Shown piece after piece: positions 34,919 to 64,000 of a DNA stretch of 64,000 nucleotides. The stretch spans positions 620,001-684,000 of the forward strand of contig NW_002476418.1 of the NCBI RefSeq assembly GCF_000189635.1, in the 5' to 3' direction. How positions within the stretch are numbered: position 1 is the stretch's first letter; the number at the start of each line of letters is the position of its first letter. A program made the translations under genes and the position numbers. This DNA is from Tetrahymena thermophila SB210 (taxonomy: Eukaryota; Ciliophora; Oligohymenophorea; Hymenostomatida; Tetrahymenidae). A model generated the notes under the pieces. The model made no database searches. It saw nothing but the letters and a program-made list of their open reading frames with translations, and was not told the origin of the DNA.

Positions 34919-37900
34919 TCAACGATTAGTGTGTTGATAGGCATCATATGTAGGGTATGGAGTTGTATAACTGCTATTTACATTTAAATTATTGCTTATC
35001 ATGTTGTTGCCCATTGACTACATAGAAGTATTTAGCGAATTTCGAGGTGGTGTTAAGCTGCTGTTAGAGAATATAAGCCTTCTTTATTTTGGTTTCGTTT
35101 GGTCCTCCAATCTTCTTTTTTGTATATTTTGTAAGTAATACTAACTGTTAACGTCTTATTCTTTATCTTATGGTCTAAATGAATTCATTCCTGAAGTTTT
35201 TAGATCATTGTATGGAGTCACATTTGCTATCACTAAATTTTATTATTCATCTGAGTTTTATGTTTTTATTACTCCGTAATGAGTTCTGCTTTATGGACTT
35301 TAATCAAATATTGGTTTTTTTTGAATTTGCTAGCTTTATTGCTGATAGTTATTAGGATTTTGAATTATTGTTTTTATATATGGTTGAGGTGATATAATTT
35401 ATTATTGCTAATAAGGTTAGTTGCTTTTGATTAAATTTGTTATAGTTCTTTATGGAGTAGTAGGGTTTGAAATTCTAGAATTATCACCAACTGTGTTAAA
35501 GAAATTTGAGTTCTGTTATGGGCTATTTATAGATAAATTATTTTAGGTAACTTTTGTTTGCGAGAAGTTAGGGTTAGCTGTTTTTTGAGGTGAAGGACTA
35601 AGTGATTGTCTTTCATATTATTGCAGCTATTACTATTAGTTAAATTTATTTTAACTAGGAATCTATAAAAATTTGGTAGATGTGTTAGTCTGATAATATG
35701 TAAAAGAGTCTTAAGTTTGTCCAAGTGCTCTAGGAGTTAAAGATATGTTGTTTAAAGAGCTATTATTCAAGATATAGTTGTTGTTATTATTATTATTGCT
35801 ATTACTTGTGTTTTATAATCTGTTATTACTAAAACTGTTGTTAGTTATATTTTAGGACAGACTTACACTGGTTGATTTGTTGGGGGTATAAAAAGGTTGT
35901 TTGTTAGTTATTTCATGCAATTATTGCTCTAAACTTATTTTTTTATTCTGCTAAGTAGTCTTGCTTGCATCAAATAGATCAACCTATTTATGTTAATTGT
36001 TCTAGAATAAATTTCCTAAATCCATTGATAAATTAGATTTAGAATATGTGCTTCTTTCATTTTAATAATTCGGAGACTTTTGAACTCTATCCTCAAAGAA
36101 ATAATTTTTAGTTGATTAATTTTAAATATTTTCTATTGTGTTTAATTCAGGTTTTAAATTGTGAATGTCATTTAGCTCATTTTGCTTTCTTTTCAAGTTA
36201 ATAGTCATTTCATAATGTTTATTGTTATTTTCCTGAGATTGTTTAAAATCAAAGTAACTTTATGCTTTACGATGACTACCTTGATCGCTTGTATTTGTAT
36301 TTGTATTTATTTCTTATTTCTATTTTTAGATTGCTATTGATATTTCCTTCGGTTAATTTTAATCCTTAAAATCAATTTCATTCTTTTTAATAACTAGCTC
36401 ATATTGGTTTACTTATTTTGTTAATATTTAAATTTATTTCTCAAGACCTTGTATTTTATTTTTTAGTTTATCATTCTCAGAATTCAATTACAATATTTTA
36501 TCGATTAAAACCTCCTTAGTTGCTAGCTATTAATAAAGTTTATTTGTTGAATATTATTTATATTATTAAAATAAAATTAAATAATACATTTTATGCCTAT
36601 GGAGAACTATAATTATTATTTTTCATGTTATCCTTATTGACACTGCTCGCAGAAGGTGTTAACTTGAAGTTAATTTAATCTCTCTACTTGAGTTACTAAG
36701 TCAAATTCTCAATGACATTATCTTTTTCTTTTAGTAAAGTTGCAAATTGAGAGTTCTCCTCTGTAAGCTAATCAGTCCTCTTTTTTGTTTAAATCTCTAA
36801 GTGCTTTAATTTCTAAATTTCCTATAATTATCTAAAAAATGTTCATTAACAAAATACAAAATTATCATTTAAGTAATAAAGTTATAAATTTATTAAAAAA
36901 GTTGATAAATATTTATTAAATATTTACTATTGTATTCTCTCTTTTAACAATTTAGATTCCTCAGTATTTTTAATTAAATCTTCTTTAAATAACTCATTTA
37001 TCTTCTGGTGCTATTGGTTTTATTCTCTTAAATCTAAAATTTACTTTTGCTGATCTTCTATTTTCTTTTAAAGAAGAGGAACGTTTTGATGCTTTACAAT
37101 ATCTTATTTAACTTTATCTATCATCATTAACTTATTCTTTAATTCAATATACATGTCTTTAATTCTCTCCTTTTAAATTAATTAAAATTATGTTCATTTA
37201 TATGTTTTATTTTAATCAAACCAAAATAATTAGATTTTCAATTAATAAAATTTCAATTTTTAAATAAACAAAAAAAATTTTTTAAATTCATTTTTATTTA
37301 TTTATTTAATTTAAAGCTAAAAAGTTTAAAATAATTGTTTAGTATTTACTTATTCTTCATTTTTAGGCTATTTTTTTTTAATTTCTTAGATCTCTTACTT
37401 AAGATCCTCGCACTCTTTTAAGGAATCTTGCTTATCATTTTGAAGCTTTGTATTTAAATTTAATAGTTCGTCGATTTTCCTTTACAATAAATTATTGTGA
37501 TGAGTAAAATTTTAGACTTATTTCTGCAAATCTGTGACTATTTTTTCGTTTTTCTTACTATTTTCTTAGCTATTTAACATTTTTGTTAGCTACTCAAAGT
37601 TATGTTCTGGCTCTTTCATATCTCTAATTTTATGCTAAGAATTTGTGGCATTAATCTTTTATTGATTTTTTATTTCTTGTCCAACCTAACTTATAACTAT
37701 TGATTCGTCACTTTCATCGATGTGATTGCTCAGGACAGATGGCAAATTATTAAGCTTGAATGAGTTAAATTTTCCTGATCCTGCCATCATTTATTTAGCA
37801 GATTCATCTTAGCTATATTTTTGGTTGCTTGAAGATGAAGAAGAAAATCCACCAACTTTTGAATTGCTTTGGTCATTGTTGACTATTTAATAGTCTTCTT

Positions 37901-40900
37901 TGATTTCATTAGAATCTTTTCTATCTACAATTCTTTATTTACTTTTATGAGCTGAATCTATTTAATTTGTTTAAAAATTTATATTTTCAAAAGAATTATC
38001 TTCTGATTAATGAGTAGTGTTTGATAGAAGTCTTCTATGAGCAGGTACATCACTGTTATTCTGTAATTATTAGTTATCAGTGTTTATTAATCTACTCACT
38101 GTCTATGTGAAAATATTTTTATCTTCTGATTTTTAAGAAATCTATGAATTGGACTAGTGATTCAATACTTGAGGTGCAAGTTATAATTATTCTTAATGGT
38201 TTTTTTGGGTGAATAAATTCAAAGTTTATTATATGGGCAGGCTTTCACCCTCTAATTCATTATCATTTTGTTCATTTTTCTGTGTAGAGATTGGTTTTTA
38301 ACCAAAAGTATTACTGTAATCTATCTACTTTAGCAGACTAGGTGGTAGATTTAAATTGATTACTTTATTGTTGTTAATAGGAGGAGATATTGTTTCTGGT
38401 ACATTGTTATTAACTACTACATTTTAATTCTTCTGCTAAGAAGTAAAGTTTTCTACTTTATTTTTAGAATTTTGATTGATTGGAGATTTTTGTTAATCTT
38501 AAGAAAAGTTATCTTTAGGAGACAGACTTACGTTTTGTTGATTAATTATTTGTTAATTGTTTTGATCAATCAATTACTCAAATTACTCTTAGCTATTTAG
38601 GTTCTGCTCAGAATTGTTTTAGTACTGCTAGTAATAAGAATCTTGATTGCAACAGGCAGAGTCGTCTTAAGTTTTTAAGAATTCAATTTGTCTGTCTAAG
38701 TGATTGCAGTTTGTTCTTTTTTATTCATTAGAATGAATAGCCTGAGGAGATAGGTCTATCATTTAGTTTCTAATGAGGATTTCGCTCTTGTTCTTTCTTT
38801 CTGCTTCACTGTCTAAATTATCATCTTCGAATACTTCATTTTTATCGCTTTCTGGATAATAATTTTTATCATCAAGTGTGTCTTATATGAGGATCTAGTC
38901 ATTTTTATTGTTTTGTAAATGAGCTTTAATAGATTAATTTTCTATTAAATTTTGACTATTTTTCTTGAAGCTACTTTTGACATCTCTTAAAATCTATTCC
39001 TTTCGAGATTTTTGAGCTTGATTATCTGTTTCTGAGTGATCATTTTAATCCTATTAGAAAAAATATTTTTAATCTTAAAAAATGTATTAAATGAACTTAC
39101 TTTAGGAAAGACAATAGCTTTCTATCTATCTTCATTTTTTGGAGAAATAAATTATTCGCTATTGTCATGATTTGAAGATATAGAGGGACGAGAGTGATAT
39201 CCATTATGGTCAATTTATTAAGAAGAGTTTGTTTGAAAATTATGTAAGGATTATTATGACCTGTGACTTAGCATATTAGATTTTTCTGAGTGCTCAGTAA
39301 GTTCTTCTATGATATCAAGCTATTCTGGTTAAGCTGGGACGCTGTTAAAGCCGATGATCCATGCACGTATTTTTCCATCATCATCTCCAGTTATAAAACC
39401 TTCTGAATTGAGCATTTAAATTGTCACAATATTGCCTTTGTCCTTACTAAATTTGTCTTTGTTAAAATCCAAGATGTTATAAATTCATATGGAACTATCA
39501 CAGCTCAATCCCATTTCTAATTCATTGATTGCATTTACAGCATTTATTTTATTATATGTGATATTTTCTTTTATTTTTATAAGCTTCGTTACCGATTTAT
39601 CCACAATATCAAAATTGTTATTGTTCATATTTCTATCTGCAGGAACATTGTTAATCCCACTATCAGATTTAGTAGATTTTATCGAATTATAATGGTTATT
39701 GCAAGCTTCAGCTTTAGGCAATTCCTCTATTTTTAACACAAAAAACCTATCAACTGCAACGCTTACAATCAAAGAATATTCCTCAAAATATATTAGCTTT
39801 AATATTGGCTGATCTAAACCGCTGCATAAGTCTATCGAACTTATGACGCTCTTCCCCCTCGCATAATAAACATTACCATTGTTTAACCCAATAACTATAT
39901 CTTCCTACAAAATTTACAGTATGCATGTTACTCCTGAACCTTAGCTAGTCTAGGAGAAATCGAAGAGTACTTCCTTCAAGATGTACTGTTTATCTTCTTG
40001 TGTAAAGCTATATTTATAAACTAGTCCATTATTGCACCCGATAAGTATATCTACATCATTGCTTAAGCAGCAAATTGAAGTAAATTGAGTAGTGGCTTCA
40101 TCATATTCGCCTTTAGCCTTAAGAGGATGATCTATCTTCTTTTCTAACTTATGAGTAAGCCAATTAAAGTAAAGAAATCCTGATTTGGCCAAACAAATTA
40201 AAAATTCTCCATTTATTTATAAAACAAAAACTTCTTTAAGCATCTATTTCGCCTCATCATTCTCATCTATTTGCATAGTCTGCAGCATTTCCCCACTTTT
40301 CCAGTTCCACACTTTTACTAATCCATGTTCACACACGCTCCCAAAGCAATTATTATTAATCCTAACAATACTTTTAATGCCAGAGCTATGAGCCTTATCT
40401 TATTCAGTTTCTTCCCTTTCAATACCCACAATTAGCTTTGATTGGAGCTTTCCCTTATTCTCCAAATATTTGCGTGCCTCTTTATAATTTCAGAAAGCTC
40501 AAATCAATAAAATTTAAAATACCAAAAAAAATTATAAATTAAAATCTTTTCATGCAAATTTGTTTAAATAAAATATTTTGAACTTATTTTATAGTAAAAA
40601 TACCCTAAAACAAATCTAAAAAGATGTTAAAATCACTTGAAAACCACTTAAATATTTAAAAAAATAAATATTTATCTTGAGATTACTTATAAACGAATTT
40701 ATTGATGCAAATAAAGTGCTTGCTTTAATAATTCTAGTTCAATATATTTTTATCCAACAAAAACACTTTTGCATTGAATATAATTAGGAAAATTTCCGAA
40801 TTTACTTGAAATAGGAAGAGAGTTTGAAGAAGTAGTTGTGATCCACTCATGGAGCAAATCGATTTTTTCGTGATTTATGCAGTTTATTATAGTCTACCTT

Positions 40901-41586
40901 TGTGTTGACTTAGATGAAACACCTATAACGCAGTAGCCATATTAATAATCATTTACAAATGCAATATTGTCATAATTTATGACATTAAATACTGTCAAAT
41001 AATTATATGTGACATCCATAGCTAATGTTGTTTAATATTCTATCATTTCATTGGAATTAAGCCCTAATAATATTATAGGATTAGAGGCTGTTTGAATATC
41101 AAAATCATCACTTTTCGCATTTGCTAAAATTCCTAAATAACCTAATTTGTTTCCAAAATCTTCTGCTATTTATATAATTGCCAAATCATATTCCTAGTTT
41201 TTATCAACACTTTCGAAGAGCTAATTGTATTTTATACCAACAAGAGGACAACTGTACTCTTTATTATAAAAGCTAACGAATTTTAACTTTTGACACACTT
41301 CTTAATTGCCTTTTTCAATGTATTTTACTAAACTATGACTACTTGCTAAAACCTGATTCTTGCTGATAAAGCAGCAAACTGTTAAAATTTAATCTTATTC
41401 ATTCATGATTGCTCCGAATGAAGAGAAAGGATACTTCTCTTATTGGTCATTTTGTAAGACTACAGATTCAAAAAGCTCAAGCGATTAATCTAAGCAATCT
41501 ATGTTTTAATAAAAACCAACATATCCTTTTTTAGCTTCATTAATTATGATCTCAACTTGTTGATCACTTGATTATTAAATACTCAT
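34919..41586 (-). CDS. Pseudo-trypsin/WD40/coiled-coil protein, member 1, about 2020 aa
   Basis: Exon 1 (41586 to about 40690) encodes a chymotrypsin/V8-like fold: SSFGAIM, ILTVCCFISKNQVLASSHS (His in the TAAHC slot), EYDLAIIQ (Asp slot) and FGNKLGYLGIL. The nucleophile region reads YDNIAFVNDYQYGYCVIG, with no GxSG. After an intron (about 40480-40690; two donors possible) comes a WD40 region with VKVWNWKSGEMLQT, ISSIDLCSG and DDGKIRAWIIG. An in-frame TGA at 39485-39487 lies within a WD repeat (DSSI-stop-IYN), where a basic residue is expected; a 39-nt intron or an error could explain it. Further introns are 39051-39100, 37170-37349, 36832-36927 and 36527-36587. The tail is Asp/Glu/Gln/Asn-rich with coiled coils (about 37500-36500) and ends in a low-complexity Asn/Gln/Ser region. 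The paralogues lie at 53720 and 61114. It is likely a scaffold, not a protease. Confidence 0.8.
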
Positions 41587-42602
41587 TTATTTTGAAACAC
41601 TTTTTTATTTTTAAATCACTAAGTGCTTAACAACAACCTAAAATTCAAAAGAGCCTAAAAAACTATTTCTATTTCACTTTTTGCTTCTTTTTTCTGCCTT
41701 CTATATTTTGGTAATAAAAATACTTTCTCCTTAAATAAGCTTCTAATAAATAGACTTTATTATTGATTGTGATTAATCTGCTATATTAAAATAATAAATT
41801 TTTATTTTTTCTTTTCCTAACAGAAAAATTTTCAATATAATAAATTATTTGTTTTATAGATACCACTAAATTTTTTGCAAAATGATAAAATCTTATTAAA
41901 CAATATATTTTTTTAGAAACTTTGTGATAGTTAAATTGTTATTTTACAAAATTTTGATTAATTAATTTATTAATTCTATCTTAATTAATTAACAACCATT
42001 ATTAATGAAAAGAAAGAATAAGTAAATACAAGCATAAAAAAAGAATAATAAATATCATAGAAAATAAATCATCTAAATAAAATATTATATTTTAAATATT
42101 TATCATACAATATTGAGATAAATTAATTATATATATATTGACATAGTACCAATAATCATCACTCATAAAAATAATATAGTAAATAAATATAAAGAAGCTT
42201 AATCAATCATTTTTATTTATTAAAATAGAAATGAAAACAATCATATATTTATATAAAATAAAGTTATTTTAAAAAAAAAATAAGGCAGAAATATTTAATT
42301 TATTTGAGAAGATAATTTCGGAATAAATTGAAATTTGCAGAAAAAACTTGAATTATTTAGATATAATATATTTATTTATTTATTAATAATTATATTTATT
42401 GATAATTTAATATTTGATGGATACTTTTTTAATTATTTTAGCAAGAAAAAATAAATTGAAATTAGAATATATCATTTTTGATTTAGGAAAAGAAATCTAA
42501 TTTTTGGATCACTTTAATTAATTATAGAGAATCAAATATATTTATTTATTTATTTATATATTAATTAATAAATACAACATATTTATTTGCATACTTTTTT
42601 AT
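41587..42602. other. Intergenic between two minus-strand genes
   Basis: AT-rich, with ATTTATTTATTT runs near 42369, 42539 and 42545. It is the likely promoter of the pseudo-trypsin/WD40 gene and the 3' flank of the next gene. Nothing else recognised. Confidence 0.5.
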
Positions 42603-43859
42603 TCAAATCAAAACTTTTGGGTTTAAAATAATATTTAATATAATGTTTTTAATATAAATTTGATCAAATTTTTCTGCTTTTTTAACACAGACAGCATGGA
42701 CATAACTTTAGCTCATGAGATATTTATATATATCTCTACGGAAAAAAGATGTCAAACGATTATAATAATTGATAAATTCTATAAAGCCATCATATCCTTC
42801 ATACTATGGATCTTTTAGATAGTCGTCTCTTAGCTAAGTAAGCAATTGAAACTCTCTTTCTTAAATTTTTAATTATGATTATCTTTCTAAATATTAATCA
42901 TCTTGTAAAACTTCTTCATCTGGTTATATTTATTCGTATTGTTATTAGAAACGTTAACTTAAGTATAGTTCATAATCTTCTTAGGTGGGTTTGCCTGAGG
43001 AGAAAAATTAATTAATAATCAAGAACAAATCAGTTTTTTTGTGACATCCTTTCATCCTCTCAAACATTTTCATAGGAATATCAAAGTCAAGAAGATTCTC
43101 TCTTTTTTGCTTAGAAAGTCTTTTAAAGTATTTTGATATGAATCCCTTAATTTAATTTTTAAATTATAATGTTTTGTCATTTTTAACATTTTAATTTTAA
43201 TTTGCTCTATATTAAATCTTAGTAGGAATTTCTTTATGAATTGTCTTTCTTTTTTTTGGTTATTATTTTTCTTTCATTTCTTTTTACTTCAAATATTTTT
43301 TAGGAATATTGTCTCCATGTTTTAATTAATCATCTTCAATTAAAGTAGAACTAGAAGGTTCATGTCTTTTTTCATTTTATAAGTTATTGCTCTAAGATTG
43401 GTGTATATTTTTCAACTCTTCTTCTACCCCATTTCCTTATTGCTGTCTGATGCTTTATTGTATATTTATTATCATGGTATTATCTTCTTTTCCTTGCTCT
43501 TTATTATTCAGTATAAAACTTTCATCATTAAAATCTTTAATTTATGGAGTGAGCATAGAATTAATCTGAAAGCTTTAAGTATCTTCATTAATCTAAAAAT
43601 CATTTTTTGGTTCATAATTTGAAAAATAGTTATTTTCAATTTACTCAAGGATACTATTGCAGAAAGAAGTGAAATCTTACTAAAATTTCAGTAATGCATC
43701 TCTTTATTAAATGAGCTTAGTTCTTATTTACTATTCAAAGAGAATTTAGTTTTTTTTATCTGAATAAGTGATAGATTCTTAATTATTATTTATTTATTAA
43801 TTGAAAAGTTTATTATTTTTGTTATCAAAAATATCGCAGCGATTACAAGTTGCTATCAT
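42603..43859 (-). CDS. Uncharacterised Gln-rich protein, 418 aa
   Basis: A single frame of 419 codons, starting MIATCNRCDIF and ending in TGA at 42603-42605, with no intron. The CxxC at residues 5-8 is the only possible metal-binding pair. Residues about 165-215 are basic (KEMKEKQQPKKRKTIHKE) and may be a nuclear localisation signal. Residues about 230-270 form an amphipathic helix region ending in MFERMKGCHKKTDLFL. The C-terminal 130 residues are aromatic and acidic, including YEGYDGFIEFINYYNRL. The family is not recognised; a DNA- or RNA-associated role is possible only from the basic patch. Confidence 0.7.
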
Positions 43860-43885
43860 TCTATCTATCTATCTAACTAACTATC
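43857..43885. repeat. CTAT/CTAA microsatellite at a start codon
   Basis: CTAT units then CTAA units, directly upstream of the minus-strand start codon at 43857-43859. Confidence 0.8.
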
Positions 43886-46800
43886 TTTTGATTTTCTTCT
43901 CTAATTTAATTTAATTTTCCTAATAATAATAATAATTAATTATTTATATATCTTTTTAATAACAAATATCTCTATTTCGTGAAGTCTCTAATTAACTCTA
44001 AAATAGCGAATTAATTTTTACTTTTTCCACGATGTATTTATTTTCTTAAAACAAAGATAATTTAACAAAAAGTTTATTTTTACTTTTATTTTTAAAAAAA
44101 GCTATTTTTATTGCCTATCTATTCTATTTTTCTTACTCAAATACCTTCCTTTAAAAATTTCTTATTTTCTTCTTTAAATTTAAAAATTGTTCAAGCCATA
44201 TTTAAGTAATTTGACATTTATTGTGATATATTCAAATATCATTTATCAAAGATAAAATGCATAATTTTCTTAAGATTTATATATTCTTATTTATTAAATC
44301 AAATAATTAATTTCTAGTAATATAAACAAAATTAATAAGGAAAAACTTTTTTATTTATCTACTCTATCAATTTTTATACTACATGCAATTAATTTCATTC
44401 ACTTAAATAAATGTATGAGAGAAAAAAAGAAACATGAGTTTTAAATAAATCCATTTTCAATATTGCTTCTTACAAATTTCTAGAATAAAAAAACGAACCT
44501 TTTAAAATAATTTACTAGTGGTCTATAAATTTTAACTTATTTCTCTTTTTTTAATAAAACAATTAGTAAAAGTGAAAAGAGAATTAATGAAATTTATTTA
44601 CTTATGTAATTTTAAGAGTTAGTCTTAAAAATTATGACACATTAATAGAATTTACTTAAAATTAATAAACAAATAAGAAAGATTCTTTTACATGAATTTC
44701 ATAAAAACAAACATTAGAAATAATTAATATTTTTATTTATTTTAAATAGATTATTTCTATAAGAATTTAATTTTAAATTCAAGCTGTTCGTTTAAATGAG
44801 CTTAATAGTTTTATCATTTACATCATACTTATAAATTATTCTATTTTAAGATTCATTAGATTTAAGCTAACAAATATATTTAAGTGTCAAAACTTTTTGT
44901 ATCTAAATAGCCAAAATAATTTTTTATTTAGATAAGTATATTTTAAATTAATTGATAAAATATCTTATTTTATAATTTAAAAATATAAAACAACATTATA
45001 AGTAGGATAGTTTTTATTTAGACTTTTAAATCATTTAAAGATTATTCAAGTTCTTACACATAGATTAACTGGTTAGTATTAAATTGCTTCATAGTTAGTT
45101 AAAATATTGATATGTAGAAAAAGATATTAATCATTAAATTCCTTAAATTTAAACAACTTCACGAATTCTAAAAAGAGAATTGCAAATATATTATTCATAA
45201 AATATACAATTTTCTTTTCGAAATTAGATTAAATTTTTATTTTTCAATGGTAAAACTAAATATCTCACTATTAAAGGCATTACAAATATATTTTAGAATA
45301 ATTAGATCATTTTTATTAAGATTATAAATTGATAGAAACAATAATTAAGCAATATATATTTTTAGATTAAGTATTGATATGCAATATAATTAGTTAGTTA
45401 AAATATTTATAAAAATACAAATGATAACAGACATTAATTCTAAATATTTAAACTGCTTCCTTAATTAAATATAAGAAATTTAAATAACCAAATTTTAAAC
45501 TCTTTTATCTAATTTGATTCAATAAAAATTAATGATTTATTTGAGTATATATATTTATATAAAAGAAAGACTTTTATTTTACTACTTAATATTCTACCAT
45601 ACATGTATCTATCTATCTATCTTTTTGAAAGATAAGTAAAATTCATTCAAGGTTTTTTTTTTTTTTTAATTATTATGTTAATTTTTTATTAAAATGATAT
45701 AGATTTTGAGCCATAATCGATGCTATCTAATGCTTTTATAATGTTTAATGCATTTTTTTGAGAATTAAAAATTAACTTTGAAAAATACAAATTTATAGAA
45801 TTGTTTTGATCAAATATAAAATTAATAAATATGTTTGTTCATTTTTTATATTTGAATGAGAAATGATAATCAGATTACAGATTATTAATATTTAACAAAT
45901 ATAATATTGATATGAATAATAATCATTTAAAAATTTAATACAAAATAAAAAAATACAAATAGATAACACTTCATAAGGTGTTTGTTTAATTCGAATATTC
46001 TGCTAATCTTTTATATCTTAACAATTTAGTTTTCTGTAAATCAAGATCAGAGAGTATAAAAATTATGTATATTGATTTTATTTGATTTTTACTAAAATTT
46101 TTTTCTTAATGGATAATGGAAAAAAGAATTTTTTTAAAAAGAAAAAACATAAATTTTTGATTTGATTTGCTAAGCATGTACTTTAATATAAAGTTTACAA
46201 ATATAAATATGCATTTTTTGATATGTAAAAAACAATACAAAATATCTATAAAACTAATTTTTGAGTTTATAAATTTTATTTAATTTTCCTTAAAAATGCT
46301 TAATACAATTTAGAATTTAGTCTTAAGGTATATCATGCAAGCAATTCTGAATTAATAAATTATTGTATCTCACTCATATTCTTTGGTAATAGTTGTTCAA
46401 ACATTTTAATACCCAAACCTGTTATATGTATTATGATTGGGATTTAGATCAGGAGTTTTGGGGATGTTCAATTCTATCAATATTACTCTGATTTTATTAA
46501 TACATTATTGTATATCGCTCATATTTTTTGGTAATAGTCGTTCAACCCTTATTTTAATATTGCCCAAACTTGTTCTATGTATTATGGTCTATGGGATTTA
46601 GATCAGGAGTTTTAGGGATGTTCAATCCTATCAATATTACTCTGAATTTGTTCATTAGCATCCCTGTACGTATATTTGCAAGTATAGTTTTTATTTGATT
46701 TAAGGAGAGATTAAAAATAAAAAATTATTTTGGCCACTCGTTAATTTAATAAAACTTTATAATCAAAATAAAATTATTTATTTAATTTTAATTAAGAACT

Positions 46801-47280
46801 TTTTATTAATTAATTTAAAATTATTAAATTTAATGATATGATATTACACAAATAAAGAGCAAACTATCTCTTTATGAAATTTATTGTTTTTAGAATAATA
46901 TTACTGTTAAATATTTTATCTCTAAGTCTATGTATTTATGTGTGTATCTAAAAAGCAGGTTTACTTATTTCAATCTAAAGAAAATGAATGATGAATAATT
47001 TTTTGTTGATAAATATTAAGAGTAATAAAAAATACTAATAGAAAGGAACTGAGAAACTCATAAAGAACATCAATAAAATAAGAAAGAAAGATTAAGATTT
47101 TATAGAAAATAAATCATATTAAATAAAAGATATCTAATTGATTATACTTACTTAAATTGTATTTTTAAGTTATTATTTATCGCAAATTATTTTTGATTAC
47201 TATATTTTAATATTAATTAGAATATTTGGTAAAAGATAAAGGAAAATTTTAGTAAAAAAGGTTTTAAAAATTAAATTAGC
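43860..47280. other. 3.4-kb intergenic region
   Basis: AT-rich DNA between divergent genes. It contains a TATC microsatellite at 45604-45621, a 17-nt T run near 45652 and two tandem Tc1/mariner transposase fragments (46351-46655). No host gene frame seen. Confidence 0.5.
46351..46655 (-). mobile_element. Tc1/mariner (IS630-like) transposase remnant, tandemly duplicated
   Basis: Two direct copies of about 150 nt (46351-46495 and 46496-46655; period 154 nt between matching PDLNP codons at 46439-46453 and 46593-46607). On the minus strand each encodes the C-terminal DDE signature: NIPKTPDLNPI, then in another frame IEQVWAILKQGLNDYYQKI. The jump between frames is explained by about 14 extra bases between the Pro-Ile and Ile-Glu codons, present in both copies, so they duplicated after that change. 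No terminal inverted repeats were found. It is a dead DNA transposon fragment; the rest of the transposase is absent. Confidence 0.7.

Positions 47281-50480: not shown

Positions 50481-50513
<33 letters not shown>
50481..50513. repeat. TCTA microsatellite, about 8 units
   Basis: A perfect TCTA tetranucleotide run, 330 nt upstream of the ART gene start. Confidence 0.9.
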
Positions 50514-50838
50514 TGATACAATTTATTTGAATTTAAAAATAATATATCAACTTAAAAAATGGTTTTTTAAAAAAATATATTTAGAATATTTATAATTTCT
50601 AATTTTCAAGAATTTTTAATATTTTATCAAATATAAATAATTTTTATTTTATTTTTTTATATCTTTTTTTTACTTTGATAAATTTATATCAAAACTCTTT
50701 ATTTATTTTCTAATTTTCAAGAAAAGAAATTAGAATATTAAGAAAAAATATCAATCAAATTTTTATATGTATTTATTTACTTTAATTAGATAAATTAATA
50801 TAGAAACCTTCTTAATTGTCAAAATAATCAACTTTAAA

Positions 50839-52821
50839 ATGTCTCAATAGCTTTAATATATTTAAATGATATTAAAAAAACAAAAATAAGAAATAAATTT
50901 ATTTGATTTTAACTATTCAATTGATCTAATAGAAAAGTTATGCAAAGCTAAATGTTCTTCTGTGAAAGTTTCAGAAATTGAAAAAAAAAAATGTGTAATA
51001 TGTAATTAATTTATTTAGTAATAACAAAAATAATTCTGCGATTGTTTTATCCATGAGTAGTGCTTTAGTAATTACTACAGATAAGAATATGAAAACTAAA
51101 TGTAAGCGGAATTTTCCTCAATATATAAAAATATTCCAACTTCAAATCAAAAAATAATAAATTGTTATTTTTGCTAAAAAAAAATTTTTTCATCATTGGA
51201 TTTTATTTTTAAAGAGCTTAAAAATTAAAAATGCTCACATTATAAATGCAAAAAAGCTGTAGGAATGTAAAAAATAGAGTATTATTGTTAATGCGGCTAA
51301 AATATATAATTTCTCCATTAAGAATGCTTTATTGTTGAGTATAATGAAGCAAATTTTGAAACTGAATAGATGAAATGCTAAAAATGTCGCTTCAAAATGA
51401 AGTTCATAGATAGCTAATTAAATAATCGAAAATAAAAATTGTAATATCATTGTGATTTGTGTCAAAAATAAGACTAAATTGATAATTAAATTCCCTTTTA
51501 TTCAGCTATAATTTGCAATTGTAATAAAATATATTGTTAATTATGTTTTTCAAAGTATCTAGAATAACATTAACAACAATCTTTAATTTATTTTTAAGAT
51601 GAAAGCATTACTGAATTCTAATGTTTAAGTCAAGTACCAAAATGCAATGTGGATCAGAGATAATTAAAATAATTTTAAAGGACTAAGGCAGGCAAAAAAT
51701 TTCTCAATAAGGTATATGAGTGCCTTAATGAGGAAATGATTAAAAATGAAAATATATTAACATGCCCTGGATTTTATTTTAGGGATAAAAATAGTGGAAA
51801 AGTGGAAAAGCAATCTGCTTAAAAATATATTACTATGAAGAGATAGTCTGAGTTTGATGAAGATGTTAAAAAAGAATATTAAGAAAGTCTTCAAAAGCTT
51901 TAATAAAAGTATGAAATTATAGAATGCAACAACAAATTTTAAGTTGATTTTTAAGGGGATGAAAGAATATTTAAATGCAGTAATTGTGAATATCTTGATT
52001 GCAGAAATTAGGAATGTAAGTCTCCACATTTCAACTTATCATGCGAAATATTTAAACAACTTAAATAATTTAAAAATCGAAATTAATAAAATATAAGTTA
52101 ATTAAATAGTAATTATCAAAATGCAATTTATAAAGTTAGATATGAAAATTAAATAATTATTGTAGATTAATAATTTTATAATCGTTTAAAGGAGGATCCG
52201 AAAAATTAAATTGACTTAATTGAAGAAATCAAAAATCCATTTTTCTAAGCCTGCAATTTACCCTTTGATCTATTTGATCCTCAGTATGATAAAGATTGGG
52301 AGTAATATAAAATTTAAAATAAACTATAGTCTTCTAGAGGAAAAATCAAAGGAAAAGATATATAATACAATTATCCTATTCATTAAAATTTATTTGGATA
52401 TGGAATTAATATATAAAAGCTTTACGGTAAATAAGATAATCTAAAATGGCTGAGCAGAAATACAGATGAAGACACGTACATTGTGGGTTATCATGGGACT
52501 AAATCAATAGCTGCAGTATAAGGTATTATAGCAAATGGATTCTAAGCTGGTGCTGGCTAGGCATATAAAGGAAGTCATTGTCCTTATACAAACACGATAG
52601 TTGGAGTAGGAGTTTATTTTGGTGCAAGTATCAATGTTGCATACGGGTATACATCTCCGATAAGAATATAGAATCAAATATATCGAATCATATTCTAATG
52701 TCGCTTAAATAGTAGAACAGTAAAAAGCGCTTGTTAAATAGGAACAGTCGGCGAATACTATGTAGTAAATAACCCAAATGATATTAAAATTTATAGAATT
52801 TTACTAATTAAAGAATAATGA
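50839..52821 (+). CDS. Cys-rich RING/RBR-like protein fused to ADP-ribosyltransferase (PARP/ART-like) domain
   Basis: One intron-free frame of 661 codons, 660 aa, from MSQQLQY to TGA at 52819-52821; another in-frame Met follows at residue 10. Residues about 30-320 hold chained zinc pairs: CVICNQ, CDCFIHEQCF, CYFCQK, CSHYKC, CQCGQNIQFLHQECF, CQKCRF, CDLCQK, CNCNKIYCQLCF; a last set, CSNCEYLDCRNQECKSPHF, lies near 410-430. Residues about 530-660 are a clear ART fold: VGYHGTKSIAAVQGI, then ANGFQAGAGQAY, VGVGVYFGASINVAYGY, IIFQCRL and GEYYVVNNPNDI. His (GYHGT), Tyr (GVYF) and Glu (GEYYV) fit the H-Y-E triad of PARP-type transferases. The protein may couple ubiquitin- and ADP-ribose-type modification; this is inference. 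Confidence 0.85.
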
Positions 52822-53719
52822 AAGTTATAAATTACATTCAAAATATAAAAATTAAAAAACTTTTATATATTTGCATTAATTATTTTATATCCTACGATAA
52901 TACATCCATCTATTTTATAAAATATTACAGAATAATCCGAATTAAATAAGTTTATAAATAAATGAATAATTTGTAGATGGTCTTTCATTTATTAATAAAA
53001 ATGAATTATTTTTTTGGATTTAACTCCGCAATTTTACTTAAAGAATTTTTTTTATAATGAGTTTATCAGATATATTATTTGTTAAAAAACTATATAATAT
53101 AACAATAAAATTACCTCAATATCTAAAATTTCAGTGCATAGTCTTGAAAAAGGCAGTACCCTAGGGTACTTACTATAATTCAATAATAAAACAAGGAAAA
53201 AATGTTTTTCAAAATGATTAATTAATGAGAATATACAGTAATTTAATAAATATAAATAAACATATAAATTTTAAATTCATTGACTTTGCATGAGAGAATA
53301 AACAAAAAAAGTATTTTTTATTAATTATAATCAAAATAAATATTTTCAAAAAAATAAAAGCAATTTTTAATTTATAAAATGGAATTAGGGTTTATTTATT
53401 TATTTAATAAATACAATAACTTAATAATTTAAGAATTATTGCTATTCTTTTGGAAGGAAATAAAATGATTAGTAAATCTAATTGCTTACATTGATTGATT
53501 GATTTGTAAAAATTAACAGATAAAAAACAAATAAATTATTTGAAATTATTATTAGCCCTAATTTATTTATTTATTTTTGATTGATTTATTCATTTTGAGG
53601 ATGGTTGGTTGGTTGTTTTTTTAATTTATTTCTTTGAAAAATAGTTGTTAGGATCATTTAATATTTTCTAATTAATTTAATAATTAATAATAAAGAAAAC
53701 ATTATTTTATTTTATCGAA
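52822..53719. other. Intergenic
   Basis: AT-rich spacer between two plus-strand genes, with short GATT and GGTT runs near 53485 and 53600 and a G-containing patch (GGCAGTACCCTAGGG) at 53151-53165. No gene supported. Confidence 0.5.
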
Positions 53720-56700
53720 ATGGATAATTAGTTTTTACCTCCTATTGAGAATATTAGTTTGCAGCGAGGATTCAAGCAGTTTAATCCTGAAAAGGGTGGA
53801 TCACATTTATTAGAAAACACTAATGAATTTGATAAGTTTCCTTATACATGCTTCGGCTACCTTAGCTTTAAAGACAAAAATACTAATAAAAAAAAATTAA
53901 TAGGTTAAGCAGTTCTCATTGGACCATCGCATATTCTAACTTCTGCCAATAGTATTTACGATTTTACAAAGCAATATGAATCTCTATTTAGCTAGGGAGA
54001 ATTAGAATTTTATGGTGGTATTGATTTAGATATTTAAACCAAGGTTGTTTCGATTTACTGCAATAAAGAAACAATAAAAGCAAGCAAATCCTATGATTAA
54101 CAAAACTTTGCAATGTGCATCTTAGAAAAAAATATAGGAGAAAAGCTAGGTTATTTGGGAATAATCACACCTCTGCAAATGGCTTTATTTGAAGAAATAT
54201 AATTTAAATAGCAGCCTGTATTAGTATTTGACAGTCAGCAATTATTAAGTGGTTAAATTTGTGATGTAGATGATAAAGAGATGCTAATTTAATTCAAAAA
54301 TAGTGATGGAGTAATTATAAATTAAATAGATTAAGAATATCACTCAATTTAGGAACAAAGTTTGGAAAAAAATTAAGAAAGTGTTGATGACGAATAAGAA
54401 GAATAAGAAAGGGATTAAGAATAAATGAGAATGGAAATTATAAAGAACAACGCATAGGCCACATCTTAGTTACTCAATAATATAGTTTTTATACATGACA
54501 AATTGTTTGGTTACGCCATACTTTCAGCAGACGCCTAAAGAGATGGAATTTATTACAAAAGTCAGTACCTTACATGCTTCCACCTCTATCAGATGGTTTT
54601 CTGGTATTAAGGGCTTGAAGTAAATCAAAAAGACTAAACATAAAAGAGTAAAAATTTCTTTATTTAATAAAATTTTAATATTTTCTTAGAAATTATCTTT
54701 ATTACAAATTTACAAATTTGTTGTTCATTCATACTAGCAATATGCGGTATCAAATATATAAAGATACTATTTTATTTGATTAAATTATTAACTAACATCT
54801 CTTTTTGTAAATAAATGTTCTTTTTTATTTTAGTTTAGGAGATGAAATATCTTGAGAATAAGGGAAATATGAAAGTTGAGGAACCAGCTGAACAGGAGAA
54901 TAAACCATTGGTTTGTTTAAAGCAGCTAAATAATTAGTTTATTTTTACAGGAAATGAGGACAGCAGTGCTAATTTTTGGCATTTAGGTTCTATGAATATC
55001 GGATAATCAGTTTAGAAAGAAGTATTCGAATATAATTTCAGAGATAGTACTTTCAATGGTATTGCAGACATAGTTAGTGAAGGATATTATGCAGTTGCTA
55101 TAGTTGGAAGATATGCAATACTTCTAAACTGGCTCAATTTTGAATTGCTCGAGGCTAAGTAGTTTGATTATGATCTCACCTGCATTATTAAGAGATAACA
55201 GAGATTCAAGTATTTAGTTGGGGATGCACAGGGATAGGTCATATACTTAAATTTAAATTGCAATACTCTCCAGCTAGAAGAGGATTAGGAAGGCTCTCTT
55301 AGATCTAGATAGCAAAAAAATATGCATGGACACAAAAATACTATAGAAAAGCTATGCCTAATCCCAGAGAGGAATCAATTAGTTGTAGCTTCTTCAGATG
55401 GAATAAGAATTTGGGATGTAAAATCAAAGAAATTAGTTACTAATATTGAATCTGAACAGAAAAAAGCTGTCACCTTTATTGGATATTCAAAGACGCGACT
55501 TTACATTGCAGGTGAAGATTAATATCTTAAAATATACGATCTTTCGGGTAAATAATAGAAATCAATGAGATTTTAGTATCCTATTAAATGTGGTGTGTTT
55601 TTGAATTCTTCAGAAATAGCTTTATCTGATGGCAAAAACTTGAAAATTATTAATGTTATTACAAATGCTTAGGATTACTATTCGATTCATAAAAACAATA
55701 TAACTCACATTTGTAAGATAAATGAATTTTAATTTATCACTGCTGATACAAGAGGATCATTGTACAAGTGGACTCTAATGTCTAATGAAAGCGAGTCTAG
55801 TCTTTAGTACAGAGTTTCTGTTGAATTAAGTAAAGCGGCTAAGGTGAACTTCTCTGATTATTCTCCTGAGAAAGTCGCTAAATTCTTTTAATCTAATTAG
55901 TCTCCAAACACAAGCTCATTCCACTCTTAAAAATTTTTATAGATGAAAGCCAAAATTGAAACTCAAAGAAACCTAGCTAAGTAATTTCAATCAAATAAAT
56001 TATTTTTTATAAATCAATTACTAATGAAAATTTAATTTAAAGTTAGGGGATTTATGAAGGAAGCTAGAAAATGGTGGGAGATCTCTATTCTTAGGAGAAC
56101 TATTATCTAAAAGCAAAAGTTAGAAATTTGGAAAGTAAAGTTAATGCAGCTAAGGGTGAATACAGTGAAAGTCATAAGGATTTTATCAATAACTCGTCAT
56201 ACAGTAAGCTAAATGCAAGCTCGATAAATAATAATAGTAGCACTAGAAATCTTAGAGAGAATTCATCTAGCATCACTTTGAAAACTTAAAAGGCTTAGAT
56301 TAAAGTTATGGAATAAAAGTTGAAAGAATAAGAGGATCTTGTTCTTAAAATTCAAGGAGAAGAGTAATTGCTTAGAAATAATGCTGAAAAGAAAGTGAAG
56401 CAAGAAAAAAAAGTTTACATGGAAAAGAATGTTGATGATATCAAAAAAAACTCTTAGCGATTTGAATCTATGATACCTTTGATTCAAAATGATATTGACC
56501 TGCTTAGAAAACAGCTTAGTTTCATGAATGAAAAGTTGAGTGATAAACAGGAGAGAATCAGAGATAGGTCAAGTTCCCTTCAAAAGAAGTAATCAGAATT
56601 AAAGCAGTTCCACAACTAAATTCAAAAGAGAGAATAAGACGTGTAAGAAGAGCTCAATAAAAAAAGAGAGTAAACCAAATAGCAACAAGAACAAGACAAA

Positions 56701-59700
56701 AGAGAAATGGAATAGCAAAGACAGCAATTTAATGAGTTTATTAAGGTAGATTAAGACCATGTGTAAGAAGATGGTGATGAAGATGATAATCAAGCTTTAC
56801 ATGATAACTAATTTGAGCACATTTCTTAAGAGCTAGATTAAACAATTAAGAATAGCTAGAACTTCATCAATAGCTAAAGAAACCTTAATTCCTCTTTGCA
56901 ATAATATGTATAGGCAAATATCGATGAAAGTAATGAGTCTAACATGAAAGCCTCTTAAATTTCTTCAAAAAATAGAAATGATGAAATAAATAACTCTCTA
57001 GGAAGCAGCTGTGTTTTAAATAATAAAAAAATAACTAGTTCTGCATAGGCTAGAAATATTATGAAATCAAATAGAGAAGAGTAAAGTTTTTAGAACTAGC
57101 AAGAGATGTCGTAAAATATTAGTAATTCTTCAAGAAATAACTATAAAAATTAAATTAGCAACATAGAAGAGGAGCAGAATTCATACAAGTATACCAATAG
57201 AAAATCCTCACCAAGCAATTATGGAAATTCTTAAATTATCAGTGAAACCAATGAAAAACTATCTCACAGGAATAAAATAGAAATTAGAAAAGCAGCTGAT
57301 TAAGAGGGATAAAATACTGAATAAACTGAAGAAAATCTTAAATACAGCTTTATAGAACAATAGTTTTTTAAACTTTAGCAACAGGTAGCCCAGTTGTAGC
57401 AAAATTATGAAGAAATAAAGCAATCAAATTACTCTCCCTCTAAATTGTAGACTATTATCATTCCTCAATAAAGTTAATTCATAAGACCTAGTGAATTTAA
57501 ACCTGTTTTGAGAATTCAATAAAATGTATAAGGTTCCAGTTCAAATTAAATCTACAACACTCCTGAGAGTCCTAATTAACTATAATCTGCTTTAAGAATA
57601 AATAATTTTGTAGGTTATAATTAAAATATGCAGCCTCAATAAAGCAGTAATATTGCTTAGAATTCTCCTCCTAAGCCATATTTTGGTACATCAGCAACAA
57701 CTCGTTCTCTTTCTCCTAACTTAATTGCAAATAATAGTGGATAAACTTATAATCAAATGAGCTAGTTTGGAAATTCATAAAATTTATAATTAAACAGCAG
57801 TTCTCAATTTTACATTAACAATTCTCCACAAAAAGGTTATGATTAATAAATTTTGCAAAAATCTTAAATACATTAATCTCCTGGATAGATATTGCTCCTT
57901 AATAATTCCTTGAATTAATCATTATGTGAAGGTATTTCAAGTAGCAACACTAAGTAGAAAACTGCTGAGTAGGTCAATAATAAATCCATTTAGGGAGCAA
58001 CAAGCAGCTCATAATAAAAATAAAGGCCGTCTTCTTCTTTAAAACAAAATTAACTATAATTGGAACTAATGAATCAAAGTAAAAATACAAACTAATTTAA
58101 CATTTATAAAATGAGTTCTCCTGCTGTACAAAATATATCGTAACTAAATTAATTATTAGCAGCCAACACAAGTTCTATCAATAATCCTTCATTGCAACAA
58201 ACTGATTTTATTTAACAGCAAAAGTTATTGTTATAACAATAATAGTAGCAGTTGATGTAGCAATAAAATCCTTTGCAAACGACTTAATTTTAAAACAACA
58301 TCTAAGCAAATAATGAAATAAATTATGAAAATGAGTAAAATTAAATAGCTGATATTTAAAAAGAAAGAAAAATTAGCAGCAGATAATCCAAACAATCTAT
58401 CATATCTAACAATCAGAATATTAGTATGGAAGTGACATAAGTAAAGCAGCTTTAAGAAGAGAATTTATCTCTCAAGAAAAAGCTTCAAGAGCATTCTAAA
58501 TTGATTTAAGAATTGCAATAAATAATGCAAAATTAAAGCGAAGAAAATTCCAAGCAATAAGAAATAAGCTTATCAGAAAAAGAAAACTTTAAAGCTCAGT
58601 ACTAAAAATTAGTTGAACAATCGAACGCTTAACAATAAAATATCCAATAGATTTCGGAGTAAATTGTTAAATAAACTCAATACATAAATTAATTAGAATA
58701 AGAAAAATAAACTCAGCTCTTTTCTTATAATGAAATGGCTAAGCAATTTGACAGAGAAAAAAATTAAATGGTAAATCAAATAAATTTGAAAGAACTTGAA
58801 ATTTAATAAAAGAATTCAGAAATCTTGTAATGTTAAAACAGCATAAGCTAATTGAATATCACAATACAGTAATTAAGGTAGATGACTACATATGAAGAAG
58901 TAGAAAAATTAACTAAACAAATAAATGTGATGGATAAGATGATAGAGTAGCAGAAGAATGAGTCAAAGACTTAGAAGTAGCTTCTAATGGGATAAGAAAA
59001 AGCTATTGTTGATGGAAAGAGAATTGAGCTTGAATTCTAGCAAATTCAACTGTTGAATCAACAGTTAAGTAATGAAAATGGCATTCTAAAGTCAAGAATG
59101 TAGTTTTTAGAAGCCGAAAATAAACAATTGAATTAAAAAATGCTTGTAATTAGAGATGAAATAGATGGTAAATATTAAAACACAATTTTGGAATTGCAAA
59201 AATTGATGTAGGGTCATGCAAATAAGCAGATCAACATTACTCAAAGTGTTGAAAATATTAAATAGGGAGTTCTCAATGGTTTAGATATTAATGCTTTGGA
59301 CAAACTGATTGAAATATCACACAAAAAGTAACAGCTATCAACTACTTAGAACTTAAAACAATCAGTGAGTTCTATTCCAATAAGTTAAGTACAAGGAATG
59401 CAATAGCAAAATATTATAAATCAAAGTTATCAGCCCATGAGAATTACAGATTAGTTGGTTGGATCAACAAATTACGAGCAATAAAAAACTTATTAAAAAA
59501 GAATAAATTATAACCAAGAATAGCAACTAGTGAATTTAGAATCTACTTCATCTATCAAAACTTTCAATCCAGACGATTAAAGAAGTGTCCAAGAGCAAGG
59601 AACTATGAATGCCCAATAAGGTCGCTTCTAAAGTAGATCAGTCTCTCCTCTAGGTCTGAATAGCCGTGGTTAAGGTTAAGGATTTAATTCATCTCAGCAA

Positions 59701-60003
59701 AAATCTCTAAGATCAGATAGATCAAACAAAAAATTTGATTCAGAATCTATAAAAACCTTCCAGCCTGATGGTTTAGAAGTCTCAAGATCAGATGAAAACA
59801 GTGATTCTGACTATTTAAGTAATATGAGTAATCTGTAAATAACAAACTAAGATTAATATCCATTAAACAAAAAGTCTTCTCTCAAAACTAGTAAAACTAT
59901 CATAAAACAAGGAAACAATAAATAGTAAGTAGTTTTGGTTGATGAAAACGATATTTAATAGAAAAAAAGGTAAGAAGAGTAAGGAATGTGTGCATAACAA
60001 TGA
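53720..60003 (+). CDS. Pseudo-trypsin/WD40/coiled-coil protein, member 2, 2011 aa
   Basis: Three exons (introns 54648-54833 and 55981-56042) sum to 2012 codons; TGA at 60001-60003. Residues about 40-300 follow a V8/trypsin-like fold: CFGYLSF, then AVLIGPSHILTSANSIYDF (Asn in the catalytic His slot), NFAMCIL (Asp slot lost), IGEKLGYLGI and NNIVFIHDKLFGYAILS where GxSG would be. An acidic insert rich in Glu/Gln follows near residue 225. WD repeats span about 54840-55880, for example SSDGIRIWDVKSKKLV and AGEDQYLKIYDLSGK. From 56043 on it is coiled coil and Gln/Asn-rich disorder, with a second coiled coil at about 58430-59330. No catalytic triad remains, so a scaffold role is inferred. Member 3 lies 1.1 kb downstream on the same strand. 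Confidence 0.85.
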
Positions 60004-61113
60004 AAAAGAAAAGTTGTTATATTATAATTAATTTAAGTCAATTATTAAAATATATTAAAATTTAATTATTAAAATTTTTATTTGTATTAAATTTGATAAA
60101 CAAATAATTTGTAATTTAATTCTTAATAATTAATCAAATAAAACCAATATGTATCAAAAGCTTAAATACATTCTTTTCATTTCTATCAACTTAATAAAAA
60201 AAAATTTAAAATGTATGTAAATTTATTGGAATCGTTTCAAATGTAAAGTAAATAAATAATTTCAAAAATATTTATTAAATTAATTAAAAACAATAAATTA
60301 ATTAATATTATTTTTTATTAAATGTTTGTTGATGCATTAATTATTAAAATGCTTGATTATGTTATTTATTTATTTATTTTTTGCCATATTTTTTAAAACA
60401 AAACCTTTTTAAATTATTTTAATAAGATTTTATCAATTAAAATTTTTTAATATAAATTAAGCTCTTGTTTCATTAAAAAATAAATAAATAAATTAATTAA
60501 TGGTGATTAGAAAATAAGCTAATAATCAATTATAATAATTAAAATTATTTCATAATAAATCATTGAATTATAAGATTAAAAAAACAACAAAAATAAGATA
60601 AATTTCTATTCTTAGGAATTAATATTTCTACTAAATATATAAAAAATTTAATCTATAAAATCTCTAATTTAATTGATTTTGTATTTTGAACATACTCAAA
60701 TGACTAATGATGATGGGTTGACTTCACAAAAAAATATAATTTTTGAGATAAAATTTTTTTAACTTAAATAAATTAACTTTTTTTGTTCAATAAAGTTAAC
60801 TAAGGTATTTTTTGATAATAAGAATCAAATATTTTAATTTTGGAAAAGGAATTCTAAAAATTGATTAGATAAATGCTATGATTACAAGTAATAGTATTAA
60901 TAATATATCTTTGAAATTGCAGTAAGACAGACAAATAAATATCTGTTTTTTTTGTTGAGTAATAATTATGAAAAGTATTTTATAATAAAGTTTTGTTTTG
61001 ATATTCTAAGTGTTTTCTTGATAATTTTTATTACTTTATAAATTTTTTCTTATTCGTGATTTAGTTTATTAATAGATCTTTCATTAAGCTTAACAATTTT
61101 TTGCAAATTAAAC
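60004..61113. other. Intergenic between tandem paralogues
   Basis: AT-rich spacer between members 2 and 3 of the pseudo-trypsin/WD40 family. No coding frame or repeat element of note. Confidence 0.5.
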
Positions 61114-64000
61114 ATGAATTCAGAATTAGAAAAATTAAATTTTAGCTCGTATTTTCCTTACCTAAAAATTTAAAAACAATAAAATGAGATTGTTTGTGGT
61201 TACCATTAGATAAACACATAGTAGATAAACTAATTCTGTACTAGCCAGTATTTTGGATTAGTTAAAATTCATGATTTCAATACATAATTATTACTTTAAA
61301 CAAATTGCTGTATTCTCATTTCTCCAACCCATGCTATTACTGTTAAAGATTAATTTTTGAATGAAAAAGGAGAATTCATTTATAAATTAGACTAAATTAA
61401 TGTGGCTTTTAGCGAGTATAGAACATAAATTATTTCTTACATCTTACTTGACAGATTTATTATATTCAACCTCCAATTAAACTTAGGTGATATATTTGGA
61501 TATGTAGGATTGGCGTAAAGATAACATGATACTATGAATTAGGGATTGAATTTGAATAATTAAGACCAAACTCCTTTCATTCAAGGGTTTAATGAATACG
61601 GAAGTATTTCTTACTTCTAAGCTATTGTCTATAGAGAAGATTCTAAAGAATATGAAGCTCCAAATTGTGGATTTGTAAGATTATTATAAGGTTGTGCCAT
61701 GCTTAAATAAGATAGTGAATTTGGGATATACTTACATGGATTAGTCAGTTACAGTGATGAAAAGTAAAGAATAATAATACAAAAGTTAAATTTTACAGAT
61801 ATTTTTGTTATAGCTGAAGTTATCCTTGCAGCTGGAAATACTTTAAGTGAATAAAAATTAGATATTTCTGCACTTTATTCAATAGACTAAAAAACATTTC
61901 TCAACCCAAAATCTAATATATATAGAAAGAGTTTGGGATTTGAGGAGAACATATAGTCGTTAGAATAATTAAATAAATAATAAATTTAGCTGATTGATAT
62001 TAAAGTAATAAATTCTCAATTATTGTGCGCAATTTCAAAATAAGGCACTTTATTTATTATTAATATGGATTAAAATTTAATTGAACACACCATCCAGCTG
62101 GATGAGCAGCCTTCTATTGTTTAAGTTATTCATGATGAGTTGTTTATTGGTCTTAATAAAAAAATTATTGTAATTAATTATGCTTAGGGCTATCAAATAG
62201 CCAGGACATATAATTTTTATTCTTAAATTTTAAGCTTGAAATAAATTGATGACAATTTAGATTGCAATTCATAGAATTGCTTATACATAGTTGGATGCTA
62301 TGATGGACTTTATTAAATTAAAATGAATGAAAAAATACCTTAAAAAATAGAAATTCCTAACTTTAAGATAGACAAAGTACTTAACATTCAGATTAATTAA
62401 GAAACAATTGATTAAGCTCCTATGAACTAATATAATATTCTTTCTAATTTTGACTAGCTTATCATAAGTGCAGCAGAAAAAATATTAATTATTGATAGAA
62501 ATTAAAGGATTGTCAAAAAAAAGTTTATTGCACATTCTAAAAATGTTTATATTATAGAACAAGTGAGAGTTAATCTCCTCCTCTCAGGTAGTTCTGATAA
62601 ACAATTGATATTGTGGGACAAAAAAACAGGTCATTTATTGAAAACAATACAGCACACTAATCCTATTTATAGTGGTTACTTGCTAAATTAGTCAGAGCTG
62701 ATCACAATAGATTATAACACAATTTGGATATTTAACACTATAACATTCTAGAATACAAAATATGAATACCACAAAAAACCAATTACTTGCTCAACCAAAG
62801 CTTCTAGTAACTCATTCTTAACTTGCGATACTTCTAACTAAATAATTTTGTGGAAGGCTGATAATTTTGAAATAGAGTCTTTTATGGAGTCTAAATTTGT
62901 AAGAACTTTTTTCAATATATTTTTAAATTTATTTGGTTTTATTTTTTTTTCATATTTATTTAAAAAGCACTGAGATATTTTATTTAATTGATTAAATAAG
63001 CAAAATTAAATAATTCTTTTAGGAATTAAATGCAAACAATTTTTGAAAACATAAAAAAATTTAACTCAAATGTAATTTTTAAATAAAATGTATTTAATCA
63101 AATGAATTAAAATTTAAATAATTAATTTAACATGAATTTATCAAATATAAGTTTTAATAAAATTATTATAAATACGAATTAATTTATAGAAAATAGGAAA
63201 ATTGCCAGAACTTTAAACCTATAATGAAAGAGATTCACATTGCTTAGAGTAAAGATTTAGCGAGAACGAATGTGATTTTAACTATATTCCTCAAAATATT
63301 AAAGGTCCTTCTCTATTAAAGTATTAAATTGAATTATAGGAGTAAAAAGCTGCTTAAAAAGAATTGCATTTTATGTTGGAAGATTAAATATGCTAAAATA
63401 TAGAAGAAAGATTACTCTATTAACAAAAAATAAAGCAAATGAAATTTTTTATAGAGGAAAAAAACAATGATGTTTAGAAAATTATAACTACATTAAGCAA
63501 GAAAAAAGAAAAAATAACTAATGTATTCAAGGAAGCAAATCAAAACTAAGAAAACTCTAATTTAAAAATAGCTCATTTGAATTAGGAGTTAAAATAATAA
63601 ATAGATTTATAAACATCTAAAGTCCTCGATTCAGCAAGTTTATAGAATTAAGAAAATCAAATGACTGTCAAAAAGCAAGCTAATATTTACATTGATGACT
63701 GTCTTTAAACAAATTAAAAAGCTCCAAGTCAAATGCTCGGTGCAGATCATTTAACAAAAAGCTCATATTCTTATCAATTTTCAACTGAATAGACTAATAA
63801 ATCAAATCTTAATTCCTAAAATTTAACATAATTTGAGATAGGGTAAACGAATAACTAAAATTATAACAATTATGGTTCTTTAAATCAAACTTAAAGTTAA
63901 AATAACAAAGCTGATTAAATAGGATAAAATCAAATAAAATCAAATGAGGATCCAGTCTAAAAATAATAAGATGTATTATCATAATATTAAACAAACAAAA
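61114..64000 (+). CDS. Pseudo-trypsin/WD40/coiled-coil protein, member 3, 3' partial
   Basis: ATG at 61114; the single intron seen is 62899-63189, after which the frame runs open to the window end. Residues about 25-250 keep the chymotrypsin-like outline: FGLVKI, CCILISPTHAITVKDQFL (Asp in the His slot), LGDIFGYVGLAQ and GCAMLKQDSEFGIYLHGLVS, where GxSG reads GCAM. WD-type repeats follow, for example LSGSSDKQLILWDKKTGHLL near residue 510 and NQIILWKADNFEIES near 580. After the intron comes a Glu/Lys/Gln coiled coil (LLKYQIELQEQKAAQKELHF) and a Gln/Asn-rich stretch. The linker between protease-like and WD40 parts has no intron, unlike members 1 and 2. It lies head to tail with member 2, so a local duplication is likely. 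The rest lies beyond the window. Confidence 0.8.

Follow-up and report, generated by a model that had tools for sequence, protein, structure and literature searches.

What might a domain that resembles a protease do in a protein that has lost the residues for catalysis? The question is raised by a stretch of 64,000 nucleotides of Tetrahymena thermophila SB210 (contig NW_002476418.1, positions 620,001 to 684,000; C129:620001-684000 in our numbering), referred to below as the window. Three of its genes, here called M1, M2 and M3, carry an N-terminal domain of trypsin/V8 type (the N-domain), followed by a WD40 propeller and a Gln/Asn-rich tail. At least four further genes of the same genome have this layout, and none of the seven retains the catalytic serine. 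Their sequences make it probable that they form a family of large pseudoprotease scaffold or adaptor proteins rather than enzymes. The parts are of known kinds. No name for the combination was found in Pfam, NCBIfam or open-licence papers, in keeping with the original prediction, which knew of no named family with this layout. The main text of PMC3341644 mentions neither trypsin nor WD40. The Pfam trypsin models match none of the family's N-domains, which may be why the layout has stayed unnamed.

Gene layout and the wider family

Genes were translated with code 6, in which TAA and TAG encode Gln; the window has 0 open reading frames of at least 200 amino acids under translation table 11 and 71 under table 6. 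Its guanine plus cytosine content is 15-29% per 2 kb. M1, M2 and M3 were spliced by hand, with predicted GT..AG introns of 50-326 bases, giving the following features.

34919..41586, minus strand: gene M1, ATG at 41586 and stop at 34919 (hand splice model)
41586-40806, 40479-39101, 39050-37350, 37169-36928, 36831-36588 and 36526-34919, minus strand: the six exons of M1 (hand splice model)
40828..41439, minus strand: V8/trypsin-like N-domain of M1 (His slot H84, Asp slot D134, no Ser)
39302..40479, minus strand: predicted WD40 propeller of M1 (Pfam propeller matches below cut-off; aligns with M2 and M3)
34919..39301, minus strand: Gln/Asn-rich tail of M1 with coiled-coil segments (heptad scoring)
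53720..60003, plus strand: gene M2, exons 53720-54619, 54839-55980 and 56043-60003, 2000 amino acids (hand splice model)
53831..54619, plus strand: V8/trypsin-like N-domain of M2 (His slot N77, Asp slot N, no Ser)
54839..55828, plus strand: predicted WD40 propeller of M2 (seven blades by hand strand count of the model)
55829..60003, plus strand: Gln-rich tail of M2 with coiled-coil segments (heptad scoring)
61114..64000, ending at 65025, plus strand: gene M3, exons 61114-62898 and 63190-65025, 1206 amino acids (hand splice model)
61228..61839, plus strand: V8/trypsin-like N-domain of M3 (His slot D79, Asp slot R, no Ser)
61849..62898, plus strand: predicted WD40 propeller of M3 (Pfam match below cut-off; aligned with M1 and M2)
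63190..64000, plus strand: Gln-rich tail of M3, continuing past the window (composition and heptad scoring)

The hand models bear out both the gene coordinates and the common domain order of the original prediction. M1 comprises 1985 codons including its stop and contains one internal TGA that the original prediction did not mention. The last 1025 bases of M3 lie beyond the window and were read from L012. A frameshift in M2 near 54556, suggested by a +1 frame that gives a Trp-containing helix, was rejected. It is unneeded because, by hand reading, the unshifted frame has a GTAAAT intron followed by EMKYLENKG, which resembles ARKYLENKG of M1.

Genome-wide searches covered the organism's own assembly (101 Mb, 445 contigs) in six frames from seed sequences, and a local comparison set held 4,471 open segments. 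Queries with the M2 and M3 propellers led to three genes designated C206, C327 and C97, and the M3 query alone also reached C172. In all four, a like N-domain lies upstream of the WD40 part and Gln/Asn-rich sequence lies downstream. The best non-self matches of the M1 propeller were C327 (E-value 4.5e-5) and C97 (6.7e-4). The N-domain of C206 recovered that of C172 genome-wide at 2.1e-6; the C172 N-domain as genome-wide query found itself only. In the local set, a three-row profile of the window N-domains matched trimmed C206 (4e-10), a trypsin-like protein designated L023 (independent E-value 1.7e-7), C172 (2.3e-4) and C97 (2.1e-3). Conversely, a profile of the four non-window members matched trimmed M2 (1.3e-7), L023 (1.9e-4) and M1 (3.4e-4). 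The family of three genes proposed originally is thus an undercount, and the seven genes are themselves a lower bound because the searches were seed-based and six-frame. The count excludes the propeller matches C206:321078 and C133:149098, and L041, L042, L046, L049, L051 and L052 were judged by eye to be other WD40 proteins. Pattern searches gave 45 stretches in viral_contigs and 27 in genome_contigs, none of them confirmed; these negatives are uninformative on other ciliates because the two sets comprise viral and prokaryotic DNA.

The middle domain is predicted to be a seven-bladed WD40 propeller. The model of the M2 propeller (mean predicted local distance difference test (pLDDT) 70, predicted template modelling score 0.71) has strands for seven blades by hand count and closes, and its Foldseek rows are WD40-type propellers. 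The top sequence match is the designed eight-blade propeller Tako8. Scores for Pfam WD40 (PF00400, cut-off 27) were 23.2 bits for M2 and 20.7 for M3, with the M1 piece not listed, and other Pfam propeller models matched window pieces below their own cut-offs (best E-value 5e-12). The family shares its propeller fold with WDR5, F-box/WD proteins, COPB2, RACK1 and others, a generic similarity that does not establish orthology. Elsewhere in the genome, many strong WD40 matches lie across about 60 kb at C185:74187-133978, possibly marking genes of this type in tandem.

The tails contain 13-19% Gln and 11-16% Asn, where the measured stretches of C206 and C97 include the propeller and end where the retrieved sequence ends. 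A home-made heptad score compared the best window of each tail with 100 shuffles; the best window was reached by 2 shuffles for M1, 1 for M2, 6 for M3, 76 for C206, 2 for C327, 81 for C97 and 0 for C172. The Gln-rich character claimed originally stands; in place of a single long coiled coil, the tails show low-complexity sequence rich in Gln and Asn, with distinct predicted heptad segments in some members.

Catalytic slots and the N-domain fold

Catalytic slots were read by hand. In the order M1, M2, M3, C206, C327, C97 and C172, the His slot holds H, N, D, S, D, K and D (His in one of seven), the Asp slot D, N, R, Q, D, F and R (Asp in two of seven) and the Ser slot Y, L, L, T, Q, F and N (Ser in none). 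For C97, and for the Ser slot in every member, the reading relies on manual alignment with L023 as anchor, since the automatic alignment slips at these places. No member has the His-Asp-Ser triad with GxSG of an active S1 serine peptidase. GxSG is missing from M1, M2 and M3, and their His slots read H84, N77 and D79, both as stated in the original prediction; no intact triad was found elsewhere in the domain.

The N-domains of M1, M2 and M3 are 25-27% identical to M1, and whole-genome single-protein searches with the three recovered only the queries themselves. Against PDB, the top match of the three-row profile was the glutamyl endopeptidase 1p3c (E-value 0.043). The bridge to known proteases is L023, which lies at the following position.

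C220:249722-251362 (L023 436-2079), minus strand: trypsin-like protein L023, passing the Pfam Trypsin cut-off

L023 is the sole Pfam Trypsin (PF00089) match in the genome, above the Pfam cut-off, and as a whole-genome query it found the M2 N-domain as its next best match after itself (E-value 2.6e-4). A seven-row family profile scored 31.3 bits on L023, a value reached by none of 40 column-shuffled profiles (at most 4.4); 40 shuffled L023 sequences scored at most 5.7. An eight-row profile including L023 gave ten PDB matches, all of trypsin fold, with a best E-value of 0.004. A low-confidence AlphaFold model of the N-domain also matched trypsin-fold chains in a fold search, so that the fold check proposed with the original prediction came out on the side of a trypsin/V8-like domain. 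Alignments A3 and A4 were discarded because of misalignment. The sequence profiles and the predicted fold support a trypsin/V8-type (PA clan) fold without catalysis, because the profile-to-PDB matches, the bridge protein L023 and the model agree on it; the sequence homology to the PA clan runs through L023 and the PDB profile matches and is weaker without L023.

The closest known relatives are the V8-like or glutamyl endopeptidases and the exfoliative toxins, a group of chymotrypsin-fold proteins labelled S1B. The family resembles this group in profile and fold matches, in the strand pattern of the first barrel and in GPxHxLT-like and YDxAI...GxxxGYxG segments. It differs from the group in its altered catalytic slots and in the fusion to a WD40 propeller and a long tail. 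L023 has a homologous N-domain that also looks inactive (slots H, D and N, with GMNGGP in place of the expected GxSGGP). Unlike the family, it passes the Pfam Trypsin cut-off and has no WD40 repeats in the frame examined; its C-terminal part is LRR-like by eye, with one weak F-box/LRR row in PDB (E-value 0.12). From its sequence, L023 is likely a second kind of pseudoprotease in this genome. Across the genome, PF13365 has three Pfam matches, beside the one to PF00089. Three Trypsin_2-type proteins, L020 1384-2268 (minus strand), L021 1276-1965 (minus strand) and L022 202-2181 (minus strand), carry GHSGSP, GSSGGA and GSSGSP, respectively. They retain GxSG-type motifs and do not appear among the best 40 rows of the three-row N-domain profile.

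Counter-evidence and alternative explanations

Several results weigh against a family of pseudoproteases with this fold and layout. Apart from 1p3c, the only PDB rows of the three-row profile at E-values up to 10 were two ribosomal L3 proteins (0.33). Without L023, the best E-value of the seven-row profile in PDB was only 0.044, and one of its ten matches was unrelated (9rgl_F, 0.16), the other nine being of trypsin fold. The N-domain model has a mean pLDDT of 46, and its second half, the second barrel, lies below 50. No family N-domain matched the Pfam trypsin models when eight N-domains were scanned at E-values up to 5, a range in which HMMER filters discard most matches above about 0.1; the single match was L023, which is outside the family. 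The three window N-domains had no NCBIfam match. The four-member profile reached M3 only at 0.22, and C327 is absent from the window-profile matches listed for the local set, so its membership rests on the propeller, the layout and the four-member alignment. The heptad signal is missing from the partial C206 and C97 stretches and marginal in M3, and M1 is possibly a broken copy.

The last point bears on the idea of evolutionary decay, in which the N-domains, and in some cases the entire gene, persist as functionless leftovers and M1 is already a pseudogene. The in-frame TGA of M1 lies at 39487-39485 (minus strand), codon 592 of 1985, inside the propeller, and is aligned with Trp in M3 and Lys in M2. 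One hand-checked intron around it was rejected since it creates a new stop. Reading UGA as Trp is disfavoured by the absence of TGA inside all 150 scored WD40 matches (of 873 candidates) and by its use as the terminal stop of M1, M2 and M3; TGA occurred in two rows of the propeller searches, M1 itself and L049 at the very end of its open frame. The codon may reflect a broken copy with a nonsense change, a misassembly or readthrough. Decay would also fit the freely varying catalytic slots and the low identity among members. However, the frames of M2 and M3 are intact through 2000 and 1206 codons, no second TGA occurs in the 1392 codons of M1 after the internal one, and seven genes retain the layout together with structural residues, among them those of the GYxG turn. 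General decay is therefore unlikely.

It is equally unlikely that the proteins are sensors or adaptors of a conflict system that senses self and non-self or stress, by analogy with bacterial multidomain proteins but without their nucleoside triphosphatase (NTPase). PMC7159879 describes bacterial vWA-MoxR conflict systems with inactive trypsin domains. By that description they resemble the family in a non-catalytic trypsin domain inside a multidomain protein, whereas they are bacterial and have other partner domains. The multi-copy, divergent nature of the family would suit such a role, but Pfam scans of five M1-M3 pieces, which covered parts of the spliced genes and not the M1 and M3 tails, found no effector domain and no STAND/NACHT NTPase, the domain expected of trypsin-STAND-WD40 conflict proteins. 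MamO, a repurposed serine protease described as metal binding (PMC4794232), is likewise comparable by description: a protease fold is put to another use there, although the protein is bacterial.

That the N-domain is some other small beta-barrel resembling the PA clan is very improbable. The low model confidence, the weak PDB E-values without L023 and the lack of a Pfam match leave room for it, but the L023 bridge with its shuffle controls, the trypsin-fold PDB matches of both larger profiles and the fold search argue for the PA clan. Cys enzymes with G-x-C motifs also belong to the PA clan. Least probable of all is a still active protease of that kind, with a nucleophile such as the Cys in the GYC[VI]xG strand found in M1, C206 and C172 (three of seven): M1 retains His and Asp, but the hand alignment to L023 places the GYC in the strand that follows the turn where a nucleophile would be expected, the Cys is missing from four of seven members, and the His slot is His in a single one.

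Pfam scans of ten plus nine further window frames, M3 aside, gave only two matches: a zinc-type alcohol dehydrogenase-like frame at 6491-7645 (minus strand) and a protein kinase domain fragment at 27238-27924 (plus strand, E-value 4.1e-12).

Possible function and significance

The function that these proteins can most economically be given is that of a scaffold or an adaptor; this, like the scaffold or sensor role of the original prediction, is an inference. The PA-clan domain has lost its catalytic residues and would have been retained as a binding module, and the seven-bladed propeller would offer a second binding surface. The tail, rich in Gln and Asn and in several members bearing predicted coiled-coil stretches, may serve self-association or attachment. 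Most likely such a scaffold or adaptor would work without enzymatic activity: its two folded domains at the N-terminal side would unite partners while the tail multimerises or tethers the complex. The proteins are probably cytosolic, as M1, M2 and M3 have by eye no hydrophobic signal-like start.

A fuller account, to which we give somewhat less than an even chance, is that this one genome encodes seven or more cytosolic pseudoproteases of an unnamed ciliate family. Their V8-type fold would have become a peptide- or protein-recognition module on a propeller scaffold, with active-site residues drifting independently in each copy and an N-domain invisible to Pfam. Family libraries can miss such domains, as the Pfam trypsin models detect none of the seven N-domains. 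The loss of the triad, traceable from M1, in which His and Asp are left, to copies with neither, would show a protease fold turning into a binding module.

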